Below, piece after piece: positions 18,125-63,605 of a DNA stretch of 64,000 nucleotides (positions are counted from its first letter, which is position 1; each line of letters begins with the position of its first letter). Source of the DNA: Acidibrevibacterium fodinaquatile (GTDB lineage Bacteria > Pseudomonadota > Alphaproteobacteria > Acetobacterales > Acetobacteraceae); the NCBI RefSeq assembly GCF_003352165.1, contig NZ_CP029176.1, positions 310,001 to 374,000 of the forward strand, read 5' to 3'. The position numbers were made by a program, and so were the translations under genes. The notes under the pieces are model-generated. The model was not told the DNA's origin, searched no databases, and worked only from the letters and a program-made list of their open reading frames with translations.

Positions 18125-18263
18125 TAGAAGAGGTAAGAAATGGGGCGCTTCAACAAGTATTCAGATGGCGTAGTGGCCCGGCGTAGAGGAGAGAAAAAAG
18201 ACTTGCTGGGTGCGGAGTCTGATTGGACGGCGTAGGTGTTGCTCCGGTTATTCGGGATTGGGT

Positions 18264-18710
18264 CTAGTCGGCGTCAGTTGATCGAGTCGGATCTTCCCGC
18301 ACATCGTCGGGGATCTCCTGGCGGAGCTTAGGCCCCTGGCTGAGGCGCCGGCCAAGCGCGCCGACGAAGTTGTCGTAGCGTGTTCCGGCCTGCGCCCGCG
18401 CCGCCTTGGCGGCTGGTTCAGGCAATGACGGCGTGGTCGTGAGCCAGAAGCGGATAAACAGCGCGAGTGTCTCGACAGCGATACCCACATCACGCTCGAT
18501 CCGCGCCAAACGCCGATCCTGTTGGTCGAGCCGCTTCGCGATCGCCGCCTCTCGCCGCTCATCGGCATCCGGCGACAGGAACGATGCGATAGCCGCCTCG
18601 GCGATCAGCGACATCGGTTGCCCCCGACGCGCGGCAAAGACCGAGAGGGACCGCATCACCTCCGGATCGAGGTAGACCGAGATCTGAGCCTTCTTTTTCG
18701 GTGACGGCAT
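18264..18710 (-). CDS. CopG-family ribbon-helix-helix protein
   Basis: A 148-residue protein with an N-terminal ribbon-helix-helix (KKKAQISVYLDPEVMRSLSVFAARRGQPMSLIAEAAI) followed by a charged helical stretch (DERREAAIAKRLDQQDRRLARIERD) that may mediate oligomers and a hydrophobic helix. CopG-like genes between traG and trbB are standard in these elements, where they probably regulate transfer or bind near oriT. It follows traG by 7 bases. Confidence 0.88.
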   Translation of the reverse strand: MPSPKKKAQISVYLDPEVMRSLSVFAARRGQPMSLIAEAAIASFLSPDADERREAAIAKRLDQQDRRLARIERDVGIAVETLALFIRFWLTTTPSLPEPAAKAARAQAGTRYDNFVGALGRRLSQGPKLRQEIPDDVREDPTRSTDAD

Positions 18711-53881: not shown

Positions 53882-53940
53882 GCGCCAAAAAGGGAGACCG
53901 ATGCTGACCCAGGGTCAGAATGGCGGAGATGGGAGCGGGC

Positions 53941-54789
53941 ATGCAGTACGCGTTGGTGGATGGTGAACGAAAGGAGGCCTTTCCAGGCGGAACGGGGAGC
54001 TGTCCGACCTGCGCCGCCGCTATGGTCGCCAAGTGCGGCCCGCGCATCATCCATCATTGGGCACACCGCGGCCGCCGCAACTGCGATCCTTGGTGGGAGA
54101 ATGAGACGGAGTGGCATCGGGAATGGAAGAACCGTTTCCCCGAGGACTGTCGGGAAATCTCGCACACCGCGCCTGACGGCGAAATCCACCGCGCAGACAT
54201 CAAAACGCCGACCGGCATTTATATCGAGGTCCAGCATTCGAGCATGACGGATGCCGAACGGGAGTCGCGGGAGGCATTTTATCAGAACCTCGTCTGGGTG
54301 ATCGACGGCACGCCATTCCGGAAGAATTTCGACATCTACCACATGTTGCCGGACCCGGCCTCTGAGCTTGCTCGGGATCTTGTTTGGGCGAAGGCGGCTC
54401 GCCACATGGCTGGCGCGAATTGCGGGATCTTCTTCCGGGTGTCGGCCAATCAGGAGCACTATCCCGGCGTGACGAAGGCCACGCTGCGCAGCGGCTTGAT
54501 CGAAAGCCTTGAACGGATCCGGCCCGAGGTCGAGGCGAGCTATCGGGGACATCATCAATATGACTGGGTGCGCCCGCGCCAGACCTGGCTGGATGCGAAA
54601 TGCCCGGTCTACATCGACTTTGGCGATGAGTGGCTGGCCCGGCTTGAGGTATATGATGAGACCGAACTCAGATGCATCCGTCTGGTCGCCAAGCAGAAGT
54701 TTGTCCACGACGTAATGACAGAGACGCGGGGACTGGACATCGACACTCGGTTTTATCCAATCTCTCAGACTAGCATCGAGATACCGTGA
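53941..54789 (+). CDS. CoiA-like competence/nuclease-domain protein
   Basis: A 282-residue protein with the CoiA layout: MQYALVDGERKEAFPGG at the start, a zinc-ribbon-like CPTC...AKCG, an HHWAHRG motif, and the nuclease core HRADIKTPTGIYIEVQHSSMTDAE with D...ExQ spacing. CoiA-like proteins are predicted restriction-endonuclease-like nucleases and occur in defence loci as well as in competence. ATG 53941 fits the family start; an upstream ATG at 53920 is less likely. It overlaps the next gene by GTGA. Confidence 0.8.
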   Translation: MQYALVDGERKEAFPGGTGSCPTCAAAMVAKCGPRIIHHWAHRGRRNCDPWWENETEWHREWKNRFPEDCREISHTAPDGEIHRADIKTPTGIYIEVQHSSMTDAERESREAFYQNLVWVIDGTPFRKNFDIYHMLPDPASELARDLVWAKAARHMAGANCGIFFRVSANQEHYPGVTKATLRSGLIESLERIRPEVEASYRGHHQYDWVRPRQTWLDAKCPVYIDFGDEWLARLEVYDETELRCIRLVAKQKFVHDVMTETRGLDIDTRFYPISQTSIEIP

Positions 54790-55241
54790 CACAGGACATC
54801 ACGCCACAAGAGGCGATGCAACGCCTTGAACAGCATTTCGGCGGTCGCGAGGGAATGCTCACCCATACGCTTACTATGCTATCGACATCCGGGCAGCCGA
54901 CGGATGTCACATTCTATCGGCGGAAACCGATATTGGATGTCGGGGTCAGCACAAAGCTCGGCGCTGCACGGCTCTACGGGCTCGAAAGCCAGTTGCCACG
55001 CTTGCTCAAGCGTATTGAGTTTTCAAACGGCGTTGTCGCAAGCCTAGGAGAGATCTGGACCGTCAATCCGATGCCGATGGACGGCTTTTCCCCGGAGGAG
55101 TTGGCTGCGGTAGACCTTGCCCAAGGCGAGGAGCGACAGGGGCCGCAAGGGGAAACGCTTCGGAAGATGATCCGAAAGACCTATCATTGCAAAAGCCGGA
55201 AAGAGACCGACTACTTTTTGCGGCGATGGATCGCATCCTAG
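54786..55241 (+). CDS. Hypothetical protein coupled to the CoiA-like gene
   Basis: A 151-residue protein of unknown family, with start GTG overlapping the stop of the CoiA-like gene (GTGA). It has a beta-rich middle (PTDVTFYRRKPILDVGVSTKLG) and a helical, basic end (RKMIRKTYHCKSRKETDYFLRRW). No catalytic motif is visible. Tight coupling suggests a partner or regulator of the nuclease. It converges with the 908-aa NTPase gene, 8 bases away. Confidence 0.7.
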   Translation: MTQDITPQEAMQRLEQHFGGREGMLTHTLTMLSTSGQPTDVTFYRRKPILDVGVSTKLGAARLYGLESQLPRLLKRIEFSNGVVASLGEIWTVNPMPMDGFSPEELAAVDLAQGEERQGPQGETLRKMIRKTYHCKSRKETDYFLRRWIAS

Positions 55242-55249
55242 AACCTGAG

Positions 55250-57976
55250 CTATGTGGCTGGCCCGCCGAGTTTGGGCGGCATCTGCCACTGCGGCGGCGG
55301 GGGATTATCCTTTAGATGGGCGATTAGCGCTCGTTGATTTCGTAATTCCCATTGGCCGCGAGCGTCCAACCCGCTCTCATAGGGTGCTAGCCGGGTCATC
55401 TCAGCATCGGCCGCATCGAACGCTCCGCAATAAGCGAGGACTACGGCGTACTGGCTGCGCACAGGGATAACCCGGCCGGCGAGCTTCAAATCCATGATGG
55501 TCGGCATGAGGTTTCGCTCGATCACGTCGCGGGCGCCGACGTAGTCGTTTCGACCGATGAAGTCGTCAACGAGTTCTTGGCCGACTCTCACGAAGGAATC
55601 CAGCGATTGAGCCATCGAGTAGAACTTCATCGCGTGGATTGGGGCTAGGCCGGGGTTGTTTCCGGTCGCCTTCACCGCCTTGGATTGGAGATCGAGCGAG
55701 TCAGCGAGATGTTTCAAGTCGTCGGTGTGGTTCTCGCCTTTGAGCAGGGGGAAAATCTTGTCGGGGTTGTTCCCCATCACGTCGGCTAACCTGAGTCCGA
55801 GCAGGTCATAATATTCGGCGATCAGATCGAGGGTGCCAGAGACGCACTCGTCCATCATGCCGAGTTCGAAAAGGGCGTGTGCATAATTGTATTTTGCGAC
55901 CCTGAGGTGCTGTGGCGTTTGCGGCAGCACGCGGCTCAGCTCGCTCATAATTCTCTTCACGGTCGCGACGTCCTTGTCGCGTGCTGCAAAGACCATTCGT
56001 TTCATGCCGACGGCGAGGCGTTCGGACTGACCGAGATTGTTGGCTTTGATCAGTTCATCCATACGATCGAGCTTGCTACGGATGTCCGTATCGTCGCCGT
56101 CCTTGAAATGCGCGAAGACGAGCCCATCGAGGGCCCAAAACCGATCTTCGGCCGCAATGTCGGGAGACGCAGCCGCCTCGGTCAGAAAGGCGGAAATCTC
56201 ATCCATGTAGCCGAGCTCATGGAACAGCTCGTCCGTTGCCATTTCGACCAACGGCTTCACATTGCCCAAGGCCACAAACATGCGCAGCAATAGGAATACT
56301 CGCTGACGATCATGCTCTTTGGGCAGCGCGACCATCACGAGGTCACGGATGGCCTCCTGCGCTGTCTTGACCGCTGGAGACCCGCAAACGTTGAGGAACG
56401 CGCGTCCGAGCGGCCGGATAGCGTCGTGGATCTTGAAGCGGTCGACACCGAAGATCTGGATCGAGCCGCTTGAGCGAAGCCGGCGAAACGCGGCCGCCGC
56501 GTCGGCGGACGCTATGCCGAACGTCCGCTGCAGTACGGTGGTGGCTTCGGCCTGGGCGAGCGGGACATCGCTGAGGCTGAGCGCCGCAACAGCACGCCGC
56601 TCATTGTCATTGAAAGTGTCGAACACGTCCGCGAGGATGAGTTCCTGCGCCGTCTCGACAATGTGCGTCCGCTCTTCAAGCGCCGTGCACAAACGGTCGA
56701 CACTTCCATCATAGGAATCAGCGGCAATCTTCAGCGCATTCTGAACGTAGAGCGGCAGACCCGCGGTGAGCTTCAGCAATCGCTCATAGTCTGCGAAGTC
56801 GCCGCGACATCCGAGCGATGCGCCTTCTACCGCCGCAGTTTCGTTGGACCAACCGAGCAGTCGCTCTGCTGATATGCCGAGCGTGGCTTCAAGTCGTGCG
56901 ATCGACGGGCTCGGTTGAGCGAGCAGGACGAAGCGCAGTTGCTGGGACGCTCCAATGAGGGATGCGATGTCGCCAGGGGCAACACGGTGGGCGTTGTCGA
57001 GGACGACGGTCGCGGTGAGACCGTCGTCCGCGAGGTGGCGACCGATTGCGAAGAGGACCTCCGTCCCGCTAGCTCCAGGCAAGAGAATTTCCCCGAGGGT
57101 GCCGCCGCGCGAGCCGAACATTCGGGCGGCCAACTCGCGCGCGACGGCGCTCGCCAGCGCGGGGCCTGAGATGTCCGCAACATCGTAATAGGCCAGCCTG
57201 TCGGTTGCATGCAGAGCCGTTTGCGACACCCAGGACGTTTTGCCAGCGCCAGAGAAGCCGACAACGAGCCGCACCTGGTGCGCGCTGGCGAGCGCCGGCT
57301 CCTGCTCCTGGGGCCGGTATCGCAGAGGCGGCGCCGGGAAGTCGTGAAGTTGCACGACAAGCTGTTCGAAGAGGTCAGGAAGGGCGTCGACCACGAATGT
57401 GTGGTTGGGGTTTGGCTCGATTCCTGCTGAAGCCGCTAAGATCCGGCCCGCGAGTTTCCAAACGAGCGTCTCCGGCGCCAAGACCGAGAACGGGAGTGTC
57501 TCTGCCGCTGCTCGGCATGCTTCGAAGGCCTCGCCAATAGTTTCCCACGGTTCGGGAAGCGCAGCGTCTGGGGAGGCACACCCCGGATGCACGAGAGCAA
57601 CGTCGGCGGGCCACGCGGAATTTTTGGCGCGCTCGGCCAGGTCGGGGCCCAGTGCCGTATTTGAGACGATAACGAACTGGCAAGCGCCGCTTCGCCGGCC
57701 CGCGAGGTGTTCTGCCCGAATTTCATCGAACCGCGTGAGCGCGCCCTCGATATCACTGAATATGAGGCGTGATCCGCGGGTTTTTATCTGCGCGTAGATG
57801 CGCCTGTCGGGAAGCACCACTTCAACGTCTTCGTCGTTCTCGACGACGATATGCGTGACGCCCGAACGTGCGGCGCGGAACAAGCAGGCAGCCGCGTAGA
57901 GGTGCTGGTAGAGGAAGCCACGATGAACAGCTTCGATCCGAGCGAGCTGGCGAGCGTCTAGGTTGAAGGTCTCCAT
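55250..57976 (-). CDS. Nuclease-NTPase fusion with helical repeats (Avs/STAND-like)
   Basis: A 908-residue protein. Residues 1-130 resemble the Cap4/DUF4297-type nuclease domain: GFLYQHLYAAACLF, VENDEDVEVVLPDRRIYAQIKTRGSRLIFSDIE, with an E/D...QIK active-site pattern. An NTPase follows, Walker A VVGFSGAGKTSWV at about 238 and Walker B TVVLDNAHRV at about 324. The last 400 residues are helical and TPR-like (AKYNYAHALFELGMMDECVSG). This nuclease-NTPase-repeat order is that of Avs-type antiviral sensors, though those are usually longer. It lies 9 bases after the 206-aa gene, third in a three-gene operon. Confidence 0.85.
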   Translation of the reverse strand: METFNLDARQLARIEAVHRGFLYQHLYAAACLFRAARSGVTHIVVENDEDVEVVLPDRRIYAQIKTRGSRLIFSDIEGALTRFDEIRAEHLAGRRSGACQFVIVSNTALGPDLAERAKNSAWPADVALVHPGCASPDAALPEPWETIGEAFEACRAAAETLPFSVLAPETLVWKLAGRILAASAGIEPNPNHTFVVDALPDLFEQLVVQLHDFPAPPLRYRPQEQEPALASAHQVRLVVGFSGAGKTSWVSQTALHATDRLAYYDVADISGPALASAVARELAARMFGSRGGTLGEILLPGASGTEVLFAIGRHLADDGLTATVVLDNAHRVAPGDIASLIGASQQLRFVLLAQPSPSIARLEATLGISAERLLGWSNETAAVEGASLGCRGDFADYERLLKLTAGLPLYVQNALKIAADSYDGSVDRLCTALEERTHIVETAQELILADVFDTFNDNERRAVAALSLSDVPLAQAEATTVLQRTFGIASADAAAAFRRLRSSGSIQIFGVDRFKIHDAIRPLGRAFLNVCGSPAVKTAQEAIRDLVMVALPKEHDRQRVFLLLRMFVALGNVKPLVEMATDELFHELGYMDEISAFLTEAAASPDIAAEDRFWALDGLVFAHFKDGDDTDIRSKLDRMDELIKANNLGQSERLAVGMKRMVFAARDKDVATVKRIMSELSRVLPQTPQHLRVAKYNYAHALFELGMMDECVSGTLDLIAEYYDLLGLRLADVMGNNPDKIFPLLKGENHTDDLKHLADSLDLQSKAVKATGNNPGLAPIHAMKFYSMAQSLDSFVRVGQELVDDFIGRNDYVGARDVIERNLMPTIMDLKLAGRVIPVRSQYAVVLAYCGAFDAADAEMTRLAPYESGLDARGQWELRNQRALIAHLKDNPPPPQWQMPPKLGGPAT

Positions 57977-57985
57977 GCCGCCCCT

Positions 57986-58606
57986 CTATTGCACTTGGAG
58001 AGGCTGGAAGCGGAATTCCGCGACCGAGGCGAGGCCTTCGAACTCGGCGATGTAATGCCGGTAGGCGAAGTTGATAAGGTCTCTCACCAACTCAAGAAGG
58101 CCACCCGTCGGCAGTCCATCAAACGGGTCGCCATGGGCCAGCGAGTTTCGACGCTCGGCGAGAGTGGGATGTGTCTCGCCCGTCAATTGACCGATCGCAG
58201 TTCCTCCACAGCGCACGACCATCGGAATTTGCGCGTCGGTCAGGCCGTCGGAATCGACCATGAATTTGAGGAGCGCCGCAAAGCTTCGCTTGTTCTTCGA
58301 GATGCGTCCTCCGTACCGATCCATCAGCGCCAACTCTAGGGCGATCAGGGCTGCAAGCTCGCCTGCCTTCAAGACACTGAAGTCGACCCAGCCCAGCAGG
58401 TAGAGGGTCTGCGCCCGGGCAAACTTTGCTCGCACGATCTCGGGAATGCGCGTGTCGATGCCCAGACTCGCGACGAAGGCACGCCAATCGGCAGCCTTCT
58501 CAAATTGGATGAATCCGCCCGCACTGCCCTCTGTCGGCCATGCGAGCAACAACGCCTCGTCCCGGTCGCTGAGCGTGATGTGAAGGTGATCCGCCATCGC
58601 GTTCAC
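57986..58606 (-). CDS. 206-aa protein with an HEPN-type RNSLAH motif
   Basis: A 206-residue, mostly helical protein. The motif RRNSLAHGDPFDGLP near residue 150 contains R-x4-H, the HEPN RNase signature, preceded by VVRCGGTAIGQLTGETHPTLAE. The N-terminus (HLHITLSDRDEALLLAW) is beta-like. A GTG start at 58606 overlaps the previous gene as GTGA; ATG 58597 is the alternative. Its gene sits directly before the NTPase gene, so it may be an effector or control subunit. RNase activity is inferred from the motif only. Confidence 0.75.
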   Translation of the reverse strand: MNAMADHLHITLSDRDEALLLAWPTEGSAGGFIQFEKAADWRAFVASLGIDTRIPEIVRAKFARAQTLYLLGWVDFSVLKAGELAALIALELALMDRYGGRISKNKRSFAALLKFMVDSDGLTDAQIPMVVRCGGTAIGQLTGETHPTLAERRNSLAHGDPFDGLPTGGLLELVRDLINFAYRHYIAEFEGLASVAEFRFQPLQVQ

Positions 58607-59157
58607 GCACGCCGCAACATCCGCTCGATGCGCATGCGCTGATAGCCGTGCGCATGCACATGCTGGCGGAGCTGGCGGATATCACGGACACCGAAGGCAA
58701 CTGACGCCTTCAAAGGGCTCGAGAAGGTAGCATAGAAGGACCACCGGGCATCAGCTGGCAGCGGGGCGTTCTGCCGTCGATCAGTGATGACTACGTCGCG
58801 CGGGTCACTGGCGTTGCGGAAAGCATGGAAGGTGATCCAATCGGGGCGCCGGTAGCGCGCCGCTTTACTGAAGGGCACCGACTGGACCTTCACATCGGCC
58901 TGATCGAGGACCCAGTCACGCTGCTCCAAAATCTGACGCACCATGTGGCCGACCATCTGCTTAACGCGATCGGCCAACACCTCCTCACGAAACTGGTCGA
59001 GCAGGTGCTCCTCGATACCTTCGACGGCCGGTTTGCCGAGCTGAGAGGCGGTCTCCAAGCGCGCAACATTCTCGGCCTCGGTCAGGAACGCCCAGATGCG
59101 CTGGCCCAACTCGGTCTCATAGAGTGACGCGAATTTCTCGGGATTATAGGCAAACAT
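58603..59157 (-). CDS. Hypothetical 184-aa protein, first gene of the NTPase operon
   Basis: A 184-residue protein starting MFAYNPEKFASLYETELGQRIWAFL, helical in the first half and with strands later (DWITFHAFRNASDPRDVVITDR, FSSPLKASVAFGVRDI). I do not recognise a family with certainty. Strong Shine-Dalgarno TAAAGGAGG precedes ATG 59157, so the longer upstream frame is not used. A good promoter (59180-59208) stands before it. It overlaps the 206-aa gene by 4 bases. Confidence 0.78.
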   Translation of the reverse strand: MFAYNPEKFASLYETELGQRIWAFLTEAENVARLETASQLGKPAVEGIEEHLLDQFREEVLADRVKQMVGHMVRQILEQRDWVLDQADVKVQSVPFSKAARYRRPDWITFHAFRNASDPRDVVITDRRQNAPLPADARWSFYATFSSPLKASVAFGVRDIRQLRQHVHAHGYQRMRIERMLRRA

Positions 59158-59300: not shown

Positions 59301-61133
59301 GTGTCGGGGGGCGGAACTTTGCAGATCGCAAAGCTAGAGATCGAGAATTTTCGCGGTATCCGTGAGGGCACGGTCCTGTTCTCGCCCCATACCGTCTTCG
59401 TTGGAGCGAACAACTGCGGGAAGACAACGGTCGTCGAGGCGTTAGCGCTTCTGTTTGGCCGAGACCGGATGATCCGCCAACTGACGGAGCACGACTTCTA
59501 CGGTAGCAATCCGCAGCCGCCAGACCGCATCCGCCTGATCGCAACGGTCATCGACTTCGAAGGCGACGATCCTGCCCAGCACATGGACTGGTTTCGCGAC
59601 GACAGAGGCGTGGTGAAATGGTGGAATCCGGCGAACGGCGCCGTGATGCCGGCGCGCACCGATCCCGCTTGGCGTCTCGCTTGCCAGGTCGCCTTCTCCG
59701 CCCGGTTCCACCGGCCGTCGCTGGAAGTGGAAACGCTGCGGTATTTCCACGATGACGATGCGGTCGACGATGTGTTCTCCGAAGAGAGCACCACCGGCTT
59801 TCCGGCACGCTTGATCAGAGACATCGGCTTCTTCTTCGTGCCCGCGGCACGAACATGGGACCGAACGGTCTCGTTCGGATCGGAACTGTTCAGGCGGGTT
59901 GTCGCGGCCGGCGAGGGCCAACCATCGGAGTCCGTCCTTAGTGAGCGCGATAGGTTGCGAGTGCCCGATACGCGCCTGGAGGAGGACGAACGCCTCGCAC
60001 CGATTGTCGCGCAACTGAACCTCGAATTGCGCGGGTTCTTCCGGACAGCGCCGACACTCCATTTGAGAGTGACCGCGACCGACAGCGACGGTTTGCTGGA
60101 GTCGGTAGTGTCGCACTACGCGCACGAGGGAGCTGATTTGCCTCTGCCGGCGAGGCGGCACGGCAGCGGGCTGCTGTCGCTACAGCACTTGCTGTTGCTG
60201 CTTCAGTTCGGACGACTTCGCGCGGACGCCCAAGAGGGCTTCTGGATGGCGTTGGAGGAGCCTGAGCTTCACGTCCCTCCCGCACTTCAGCGGCGATTGG
60301 TCCATCGCATCCAGGCGCTTTCTCAGCAGACGTTCGTTTCAACACACTCGCCGATGGTGGCGGCGCTCGCCGATCCGAAGGGCGTTGCTGTGCTTCGCAA
60401 CGACAACGGTCAACTCACGTCCATCCCTTTGCTGACGTCCATGCTGCCGGCTGACACACCGAATAGCGTCCGCAAGCTCTTCCAGGTCAATCGCGTCGAG
60501 ACGATTGCCGCCTTGATGCACGAGTTCGTCTTGGTCCCCGAAGGACGCACCGACTACGAATGGATGGGGCTTCTGGTGCGCGCGGTCGACCTGCACCAAA
60601 GCTGGGCAGCAGCAGACGAATGCAGGTTCGACGCTTTTGTCGGCGTGATCCCCACGCATGATGGAGCGGTTGTCCGAACCGTCGACGCCATGGCGCCCCT
60701 CCACCCGCGAGTGGTGGCGATCGTCGACGGTGACGCCGAAGGTTTGGGCTACGCCGCCGCCCTCACCGCTGCCGGTGCTCCGAATTCAGGCGTGATCATC
60801 CGCTGGGCGGATGGTCAGATGCTTGAGGATACGCTCGGTTGGATCATCGACGCGGACGCGGCCGCCTGCCTTGCGGCAATCCATATCGACAACCCGCCGG
60901 CGACGTCGGCGGATTTGGTTGCGCGCCTGAAAAGTGAGAACCGCAATGCCGGTGGGCTCAAGAAAGACACGTCCAGCTACGAGTCCATCGCCGCCGCAAT
61001 CGGAGCAAACGAAGCTTGCTGTGCACGGGCCCGCTCCCTGCTGAACGGAATCGCGGATCTCGCGAAGGGAGTGGCGAACCCCATGTTTGTCGCCGATGCG
61101 AACAACGCTGCGATCAGGGTCTTTCAGCCGTGA
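59301..61133 (+). CDS. OLD-family ATPase-TOPRIM nuclease (GajA-like)
   Basis: A 610-residue protein of the OLD class 2 type. It begins IAKLEIENFRGIREG with Walker A FVGANNCGKTTVVEALALLF (about 34), the signature RRHGSGLLSLQHLLLLLQF, Walker B FWMALEEPELHVPP and the H-loop STHSPMVAALADP. The TOPRIM domain has VPEGRTDYEWM (about 412) and AIVDGDAEGLGYA (DxD, about 476). GajA of Gabija is built this way. The start is uncertain: GTG 59301, with GTG 59268 and TTG 59319 as alternatives. The stop overlaps the helicase gene (GTGA). Confidence 0.9.
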   Translation: MSGGGTLQIAKLEIENFRGIREGTVLFSPHTVFVGANNCGKTTVVEALALLFGRDRMIRQLTEHDFYGSNPQPPDRIRLIATVIDFEGDDPAQHMDWFRDDRGVVKWWNPANGAVMPARTDPAWRLACQVAFSARFHRPSLEVETLRYFHDDDAVDDVFSEESTTGFPARLIRDIGFFFVPAARTWDRTVSFGSELFRRVVAAGEGQPSESVLSERDRLRVPDTRLEEDERLAPIVAQLNLELRGFFRTAPTLHLRVTATDSDGLLESVVSHYAHEGADLPLPARRHGSGLLSLQHLLLLLQFGRLRADAQEGFWMALEEPELHVPPALQRRLVHRIQALSQQTFVSTHSPMVAALADPKGVAVLRNDNGQLTSIPLLTSMLPADTPNSVRKLFQVNRVETIAALMHEFVLVPEGRTDYEWMGLLVRAVDLHQSWAAADECRFDAFVGVIPTHDGAVVRTVDAMAPLHPRVVAIVDGDAEGLGYAAALTAAGAPNSGVIIRWADGQMLEDTLGWIIDADAAACLAAIHIDNPPATSADLVARLKSENRNAGGLKKDTSSYESIAAAIGANEACCARARSLLNGIADLAKGVANPMFVADANNAAIRVFQP

Positions 61134-62398
61134 GCATTCGCGCGGTCGAGGGGGCCGCGGGTTGCGGGAAAACGCACCGCCTCATGGCGATGCTCGCGGA
61201 AACGCTCGCCGCCCATCCGTTGACCGAGGGTCAGCGTGTGCTCGCCTTGACCTTCATGCACGGAGCTCGGCGACGGCTATCGGATCGCCTCAAAGGCGTG
61301 GCCGGTCTTGCTGGGCGGGTCCAATGCTGCACTGTGGATGCCTTCGCATGGCGCATTTACCGACGTTGGCGTGGGCTCGCGACCGCACTTGGCGTTCCTG
61401 CTACCATCGAGGGCGAGTTCGATGCGGTGTGCGATGCGGCTGGATTGCTGCTTGAACAACCGGACGTTCGCTCGTGGACGGCTATGAGCTTCCCGATCGT
61501 CCTCGTGGATGAAGGCCAGGATCTGCGACCGCAGCGCTTGCGCATGTTGGTGGCGCTGTCGGGAGCGACGCACGCGCTGATAGCGGCAGATGAGTTTCAA
61601 TGCCTAGATCAAGCGCTTCGCCCGAACCCTCTCGTGGCATGGCTGCAGAATGCAGCAGTGCCTGAAACGCTAGTCCAGGTTCGGAGAACAAACGTTGGGG
61701 GCCTTCTCGCGGCGGCAACGGCGATCCGGAGCAGCCAGGCGCCGGTGAACGGCCAGGGTTTTCGTATACTGCAGCCAGGCGTGAGCGTGCCGCTTGCGGC
61801 CACATTGCTCGCCAACGCAATCGCCTGGCGTCAGGGCGGCGATGTCGCGGTTATCACTCCAGCGCTACAGGGCGGGTATGCGCAGTCGGTAATAGCCAGG
61901 GTGGGGCAAGGACCCTGTGGTCAGCAGCAAAATGGGCCGTACTCCATCCACTGGGAAGGAACCGACCGCGATGAGACACAGCGCATCGTCGGAGCCCTCC
62001 AGCTTCCTGCGGCCCCCACGGCCACAGAGGCGTTCGCAGCTCTGCGCGCCCTTCCTGCGTCCGGGCCAGCACGAGCGACGATTGATTGGATCAACAATCA
62101 GATTCACGCAGTTGGGCGCTTGGCCTTTACCCGCGAGGAAATCGAAGCGGTGATCGCGCGAAACGTAGCGTTGCGCAGGCAGCATGGTGGCGGCGGGTCG
62201 CATCTCTTCAACGCAATGACGGTTCAACAGGCCAAAAATCGCGAGTTCGAGGGCGTCGTCGTCATCTGGCCGTATCAGGTGGGGGGCGATGTCGAGCACA
62301 AGCGCCGGCTGCTTTACAACGCGGTCACGCGAGCGAAGCGGTGGTGCAACATCATCGTTCAAAGCCAGAATATTCTCGGGTCGGCGCCGTTTGCTTAA
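61130..62398 (+). CDS. UvrD/PcrA-like helicase (GajB-like)
   Basis: A 422-residue SF1 helicase starting IRAVEGAAGCGKTHRLMAML (Walker A at 8-15). Further motifs are VLALTFMHGAR, FPIVLVDEGQDLRPQRLRM (motif II, about 125), LIAADEFQCLD, VQVRRTN, MTVQQAKNREFEGVVVIW (motif V) and LLYNAVTRAKRW (motif VI). It is somewhat shorter than typical GajB (near 500 residues). GTG 61130 overlaps the OLD stop, which defines a coupled pair as in Gabija. The HNH gene follows after 10 bases. Confidence 0.9.
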   Translation: MSIRAVEGAAGCGKTHRLMAMLAETLAAHPLTEGQRVLALTFMHGARRRLSDRLKGVAGLAGRVQCCTVDAFAWRIYRRWRGLATALGVPATIEGEFDAVCDAAGLLLEQPDVRSWTAMSFPIVLVDEGQDLRPQRLRMLVALSGATHALIAADEFQCLDQALRPNPLVAWLQNAAVPETLVQVRRTNVGGLLAAATAIRSSQAPVNGQGFRILQPGVSVPLAATLLANAIAWRQGGDVAVITPALQGGYAQSVIARVGQGPCGQQQNGPYSIHWEGTDRDETQRIVGALQLPAAPTATEAFAALRALPASGPARATIDWINNQIHAVGRLAFTREEIEAVIARNVALRRQHGGGGSHLFNAMTVQQAKNREFEGVVVIWPYQVGGDVEHKRRLLYNAVTRAKRWCNIIVQSQNILGSAPFA

Positions 62399-62408
62399 GG
62401 AGGAACGA

Positions 62409-63605
62409 GTGCCGATCTGCGCCATTTGCGGCCAGGACATAGCGCCCGCCGATGACTCCGAGGAGCACATTCTGCCCGGCGCGATCGGCGGGCGCCGAAC
62501 CGTGGGCGGATTCCTGCACGACGGCTGCAATCACCGCTCGGGCCATACCTGGGACGCGGCGCTTGAAAAGCAGCTGCGACCGCTGGCTCTGCATTTCGGC
62601 GTGAAGCGCCAACGTGGGCGGACCTTACGCATGGCGGTCACCACGACCGCTGGTGAGAACCTCCTGCTAAACGCCGGCGGCCAGCTGGAAATGGCCCGGC
62701 CGGAGATCAAGCGCACGCCGATCCCGGATGGCGAGACCATCGCGGTCAAGGCCGGGTCGATTGCCCAGGCGCGCGACGTGCTGGAAGGGGTGAAGCGCAA
62801 ATATCCGAAGGTGGACGTGGAGGCGGCCTTGGCCGGCGCCGAAATCCAACGGTCCTACGCGAAGGGCGTCGTGCGCATTGACTTGAACTTCGGGGGCCCA
62901 TTGTCGGGCCGGTCCCTCGTCAAGAGCGCCTTGGCGCTGGCACACGTGACTGGCCTCCCGATAGTCCAATGCCGCGACGCGTTGGCCTACCTGCGCGATG
63001 CCGACGCAGAGCCCTGCTTCGGCTACTACTACGTCGATGACCCCGTCGACGGCCGGCCGCCGGCGATGCCGCTGCACTGTGTCGCCATCGATGCCAATCC
63101 TGAGACAGGATTGATCTTGGGCTACGTGGAATACTTCGGCATCCACCGGGCCGTGGTCTGCCTCGGCCGTGACTATGTCGGCGACCGCCTGAAGGCGGTC
63201 TATGCCCTCGATCCGCGCACCGGCGAGACCGTGGAAGTCGCGGTGCGCCTCGATTTCGACGTCGCCGATGTGCGGGCGATCTACGATTATGAGCGCGACG
63301 ATGCCGAAAAGCGGCAACAGGCCTTCGGCGCCGTGTTCGGACCAGTCTTGGGCTCGCATCAGGCCGCTGAACGTGACCGGGTGGTCCGCGACAGCCTGAA
63401 CTTCGCCTGGGCCAACTGCGGCGGCGTGCCGGATCAGCCACTGACCGCTGAGCATCTAGCAAAGCTGATGGAGCTGTTCGCCGACCGTGCCACGCCGTGG
63501 TGGAAGCACGTCACGGGCCTGAGCGATGCGGCGGCGCGCCAACTCGCCTTGGCCTATATCAGCCAGGTGCTGGCCGTAACGCAATCGACGCCGGTTAAGC
63601 CTTGA
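62409..63605 (+). CDS. HNH endonuclease-like protein downstream of the Gabija-like pair
   Basis: A 398-residue protein with an N-terminal HNH-type zinc nuclease: CAICGQDIAPADDSEEHILPGAIGG and then FLHDGCNHRSGHTWDAALE, giving CxxC, EH and CN with the catalytic-type His. The C-terminal 330 residues are strand-rich and without a motif I know. GTG 62409 has a perfect AGGAGG seven bases upstream, so the longer upstream frame is not used. It is 10 bases downstream of the helicase gene on the same strand, so co-transcription is likely. Whether it is part of the defence system is unknown. Confidence 0.82.
   Translation: MPICAICGQDIAPADDSEEHILPGAIGGRRTVGGFLHDGCNHRSGHTWDAALEKQLRPLALHFGVKRQRGRTLRMAVTTTAGENLLLNAGGQLEMARPEIKRTPIPDGETIAVKAGSIAQARDVLEGVKRKYPKVDVEAALAGAEIQRSYAKGVVRIDLNFGGPLSGRSLVKSALALAHVTGLPIVQCRDALAYLRDADAEPCFGYYYVDDPVDGRPPAMPLHCVAIDANPETGLILGYVEYFGIHRAVVCLGRDYVGDRLKAVYALDPRTGETVEVAVRLDFDVADVRAIYDYERDDAEKRQQAFGAVFGPVLGSHQAAERDRVVRDSLNFAWANCGGVPDQPLTAEHLAKLMELFADRATPWWKHVTGLSDAAARQLALAYISQVLAVTQSTPVKP

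Follow-up and report, generated by a model that had tools for sequence, protein, structure and literature searches.

Positions 59,301 to 63,605 of the window, by which the whole analysed stretch of 64,000 nucleotides of the Acidibrevibacterium fodinaquatile genome is meant, most probably (probability about 0.87) hold a complete, compact two-gene Gabija system and an independent HNH cargo gene that was newly placed behind gajB and is not a Gabija subunit. They would be two cargo units with separate functions, located in an integrative conjugative element close to its integrase end. The first unit would be a complete Gabija of a compact-helicase subtype, in which GajA, with its ATPase and its TOPRIM nuclease, would form the core and GajB would bind to it as the NTP-hydrolysing partner. 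As judged from its family, GajA would nick or cut DNA by means of the TOPRIM domain upon phage infection. The second unit would be a single HNH_5 gene, elsewhere apparently a stand-alone cassette complete with a 5' leader, which here would have been joined without this leader directly behind gajB, its translation depending on a Shine-Dalgarno sequence that overlaps the gajB stop. Gabija is known to form a 4:4 complex of GajA and GajB and to provide abortive defence. The features of the locus are listed in Table 1.

Table 1. Features of the Gabija-like locus and the adjoining HNH gene (positions in the window)
Feature	Position	Strand	Remarks
gajA-like gene, class 2 OLD family (ABC ATPase and TOPRIM)	59319..61133	+	604 aa, TTG start
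GTGA translational overlap of gajA and gajB	61130..61133	+	
gajB-like gene, compact UvrD-like SF1 helicase/ATPase	61130..62398	+	422 aa, GTG start overlapping the gajA stop
Junction, DNA homology switching from gajAB relatives to HNH relatives	62391..62412	+	Contains TAAGGAGG; blastn boundaries
HNH_5 gene, most probably independent cargo	62409..63605	+	398 aa; N-terminal HNH with C4xxC7, E19H20 and H37xxC40N41; conserved C-terminal region of ~330 aa

A sequence-only reading had described the first two genes as a Gabija-like pair of an OLD-TOPRIM gene and a UvrD-like gene overlapping by GTGA, and the model searches confirmed this. The best-scoring PADLOC models for the pair were GajA PDLC00086 (E=4.2e-51) and GajB PDLC04173 (1.5e-18). 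The gajA-like protein matched AAA_15 of Pfam (E=3.5e-22), and a PDB profile search with it returned the OLD structure 6p74, several GajA entries, and retron and Septu ATPases. The TTG at 59319 rather than position 59301 was chosen as its start because the N-terminus is collinear with the one annotated in a protein of 86% identity. In an alignment of 12 gajA-like sequences, the Walker A motif GANNCGKT and the EEPELH motif of the N-terminal ABC ATPase are kept, and the TOPRIM residues E408-G409 and D470-G-D472 are invariant, as are the putative metal-B residue E503 and the lysine K548. The roles of these residues in class 2 OLD nucleases were taken from earlier work (PMC6755086; PMC10781630). 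The protein differs from BpOLD in that D412, also invariant in the 12 sequences, occupies the place of the metal-B residue E404, and in that the position of T506 is M501 (T, M, or K in relatives), these equivalences (E404, T506, E508, K562) having been assigned by eye and not by structure superposition.

Gene order and overlapping frames are the same as in the Gabija system of B. cereus VD045, which consists of GajA and the UvrD/PcrA/Rep-like helicase GajB. The combination of an ABC ATPase and a TOPRIM domain with E and DxD, and of a UvrD-like partner with all SF1 motifs, is also the same, although the sequence identity between the two pairs is low. The 4-base overlap of gajA and gajB is present in L018-L020, L023, and L043 as well, while longer overlaps occur in rhizobial copies. 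In Pfam, the gajB-like protein scored above the cut-offs of both UvrD_C_2 (1.9e-15) and UvrD-helicase, and a PDB search with it matched GajB. Motifs I (GAAGCGKT), Ia, II (VDEGQ), III (ADEFQCL), IV (RRT), V (QAKNREF), and VI (LLYNAVTRA) are kept across 12 aligned gajB-like sequences, none of them being lost despite the short length of the protein.

The helicase had been thought shorter than usual, and it is: 422 aa against the 494 aa of B. cereus GajB, for which subdomain limits are available (PMC10681800). A weak profile alignment of the two places the shortening mainly in the accessory-domain regions, with ~26 residues missing between motifs I and II and ~28 before motif V, each in one of two such regions, and the remainder at the two ends; no GajB domain was dropped outright in this alignment. 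Full-length helicases throughout the gajB-like subfamily typically have ~420-441 aa. The short helicase marks a stable two-gene Gabija subtype that keeps all SF1 motifs.

The third gene had been said to follow after 10 bases, with a perfect Shine-Dalgarno and a complete CxxC...EH...CN HNH start, and each of these points held. Its product scored above the cut-off of HNH_5 (PF14279; E=2.9e-9), a family that was matched by 21/21 aligned relatives. In these 21 sequences C4, C7, E19, H20, C40, and N41, the residues of the metal finger, are invariant. The N-terminal motifs are those of HNH_5 proteins, whereas the ~330-aa C-terminal region lies outside Pfam, and no fold in PDB or BFVD matched it at E<=0.001. 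The structure of the whole protein was predicted confidently by AlphaFold (mean pLDDT 88.1, pTM 0.81). Most likely, the protein works on its own, as a predicted metal-dependent nuclease, and its gene is most likely a stand-alone nuclease gene of mobile-element cargo, encoding a candidate single-gene defence or restriction protein and not a Gabija subunit.

At the junction, the GTG start of the HNH gene follows the gajB stop after 10 bases, and TAAGGAGG, the perfect Shine-Dalgarno of the HNH gene, overlaps the TAA of gajB. No terminator-like or promoter-like site was found between the two genes in a simple scan. From the ribosome site we infer that the HNH gene is probably co-transcribed with gajAB in the A. 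fodinaquatile genome and that, in this one genome, the gajAB transcript probably serves for its translation. In blastn, the similarity to the nearest gajAB genes (L018, 78% at the DNA level) spans 59307-62391 and then ends, and that to the nearest HNH genes (L002 and L005, 85%) spans 62412-63601. The homology is thus switched within 21 bases, and the boundaries coincide with the edges of the genes. A stretch of 60-82 bases upstream of the ATG is common to four stand-alone HNH relatives and absent from the window, which indicates that the normal form of the HNH gene is a cassette including a leader, and that only the coding part of this cassette is located here behind gajB.

The same junction could have resulted from a recent, lineage-specific recruitment, in which a formerly separate cargo gene became a co-expressed accessory effector or backup nuclease in a layered defence without physical partnership. 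The leader of the relatives has been replaced by an in-operon ribosome site, and the reading frame and the HNH residues are intact, which would agree with recruitment. There is, however, a single example without any trace of shared evolution, and chance placement of cargo explains the arrangement equally well, so that recruitment is regarded as rather improbable. Functional dependence of gajAB and the HNH gene is not supported.

Independent placement of the HNH gene can also be seen from the mobile element itself. The window holds a conjugative element with CagX-type, TraG/VirD4-type coupling-protein, and relaxase genes, and a tyrosine integrase gene is located ~1.4 kb downstream of the HNH gene (L040, 13037-14410); no tRNA attachment site was found near the integrase. 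Two loci of Acidiphilium iwatense (L003 and L005) share the backbone located at 12.7-26.2 kb of the window, the longest blocks being 81.9-87.0% identical in nucleotides. In both, the HNH gene adjoins AbiU2/Abi_C-type genes at, or close to, the site that corresponds to window positions 18217-18303, and this slot is without an HNH gene in the window. The presence of the gene in a different slot of the same backbone shows that it has been placed independently of gajAB within one element family. The slot, flanked by the coupling-protein gene and the transfer gene that comes next, is a possible cargo hotspot.

Elsewhere, the HNH gene was found next to AbiU2 and Abi_C (L003, L005), AbiGi (L007), GmrSD and a type ISP enzyme (L008), an OLD-like ATPase (L013), an SMC-like AAA protein (L036), an MmeI-type IIG enzyme (L037), type I restriction genes and MazF (L016), a type ISP enzyme (L021), or CcdB/BrnT-like toxins (L006). 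Other copies adjoin transposases, plasmid partition genes, or housekeeping genes. Several of the ~25 HNH loci are next to Gabija, AbiU2/Abi_C, AbiGi, GmrSD, type I, ISP, or IIG restriction systems, OLD-like ATPases, or toxin-antitoxin pairs. Clustering of the neighbours gave small groups only and no conserved partner gene, the groups apparently consisting of transposases and further common genes, or of genes that the members of a single family of conjugative elements share. The varied defence and restriction-modification neighbours suggest that the HNH gene is a passenger of defence islands, a possible enrichment near defence genes being a lead. A more far-reaching and tentative proposal, which we consider doubtful, is that the family, with its HNH_5 domain and confidently modelled C-terminal region, is an undescribed single-gene defence nuclease that moves between defence islands and conjugative elements and has here been wired into a Gabija operon. 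The OLD-like ATPase of L013 (9375-11042, minus strand) carries a TOPRIM domain and is encoded on the strand opposite to the nearby HNH family member; it is a second, independent OLD-type neighbour.

The HNH gene was absent from 50,697 phage records searched by tblastn and was not found in a pattern-based scan of 2.9 million viral contigs, in which no match was confirmed; a phage origin of the gene was rejected on these grounds. The same results argue against insertion of the gene behind gajB as a free-standing homing endonuclease, with which the HNH domain, the sharp edges of homology, and the scattered sites would agree. No common insertion site was seen among the loci, moreover, and both the conserved C-terminal region and the frequent defence-gene neighbours are atypical of such enzymes, which makes this origin very unlikely.

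Linkage between gajAB and the HNH gene was surveyed from both sides. The HNH-family profile was positive in none of 14 other short-helicase gajAB loci (L018-L020, L023, L043-L049, L052, L053, and L069), of which two are degenerate (L044, L049) and one, L069, shows only ~1 kb downstream. Among seven more distant Gabija loci, two of which end with the contig (L064, L071), the HNH gene was seen in 0/5 with informative downstream sequence. Conversely, gajA or gajB was near none of the 26 HNH relatives (25-87% identity) for which upstream DNA is sequenced. Plasmid records with the HNH gene (13) and with a gajB-like gene (20) had no accession in common, and of the other genomes in a set of 299, eight had the HNH gene, in one case as a fragment at the end of a contig, and none had a close gajB. 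The family counts amount to tens of loci, not thousands, and other Gabija types were sampled lightly through the five informative loci. In the published titles and abstracts searched, which cover the literature in part, no three-gene Gabija with an HNH gene was encountered. The decayed gajAB copies, with split frames and a truncated gajA, are located at 3414-6264 of L049 and 4774-6178 of L044, on Devosia and Burkholderia plasmids; they show turnover of gajAB cargo.

These counts bear on the suggestion made in the sequence-only reading that the locus represents a divergent Gabija subtype using an extra nuclease. The compact-helicase subtype is supported, the HNH protein as its component is not (0/14 gajAB loci, 0/26 HNH loci). 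The association expected between the HNH gene and short helicases was not seen either, since other full-length short helicases (~420-441 aa), 34-84% identical to the gajB-like protein, occur without it; instead, the HNH family adjoins many unrelated genes and in 26 other loci never follows gajB. That the HNH protein is a true third subunit, a second nuclease compensating for the short helicase, would agree with the operon-like layout, in which the 10-base gap, the common strand, and the perfect Shine-Dalgarno overlapping the gajB stop speak against independence. With the linkage tested from both genes, such a subunit was rejected and is considered highly improbable. A Septu-like arrangement of a PtuA ATPase and a PtuB HNH protein, to which an AAA_15 ATPase and an HNH protein sharing one operon and weak matches of PtuA models to the ATPase domain might point, was likewise rejected and has a negligible likelihood: Septu ATPases are not known to carry a TOPRIM domain, whereas the gajA-like protein has TOPRIM motifs and GajA as best models, a UvrD-like gene intervenes, and the HNH protein, which matched no PADLOC model at E<=0.1 and no PtuB chain in the PDB at E<=1, is not PtuB as modelled in PADLOC.

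The reading as a two-gene Gabija with separate HNH cargo accounts for all the observations. It guards against recording a false three-component subtype from one operon-like layout, and a compact two-gene Gabija lineage is documented by it on proteobacterial plasmids and conjugative elements. A shortened helicase with every SF1 motif helps to ask what the minimal needs of GajB are, and the little-studied HNH family is pointed to as a separate candidate for defence.

In A. iwatense, a defence-like block made up of the HNH gene, a 577-aa open reading frame, and AbiU2-type HEPN or Abi_C genes occupies 7992-11635 of L003 and 7995-12772 of L005; the corresponding slot of the window (18217-18303) is free of such a block. 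In the window, a gene on the minus strand (55250-57976) encodes a 908-aa protein with a weak N-terminal match to a Cap4-type nuclease, a P-loop ATPase, and a long C-terminal region, and is adjoined by two genes at 57986-58606 and 58603-59157; it looks like an uncatalogued defence candidate. On the plus strand, a gene for a CoiA_N-like protein (53920-54789) overlaps by 4 bases with a 151-aa gene (54786-55241, also on the plus strand).
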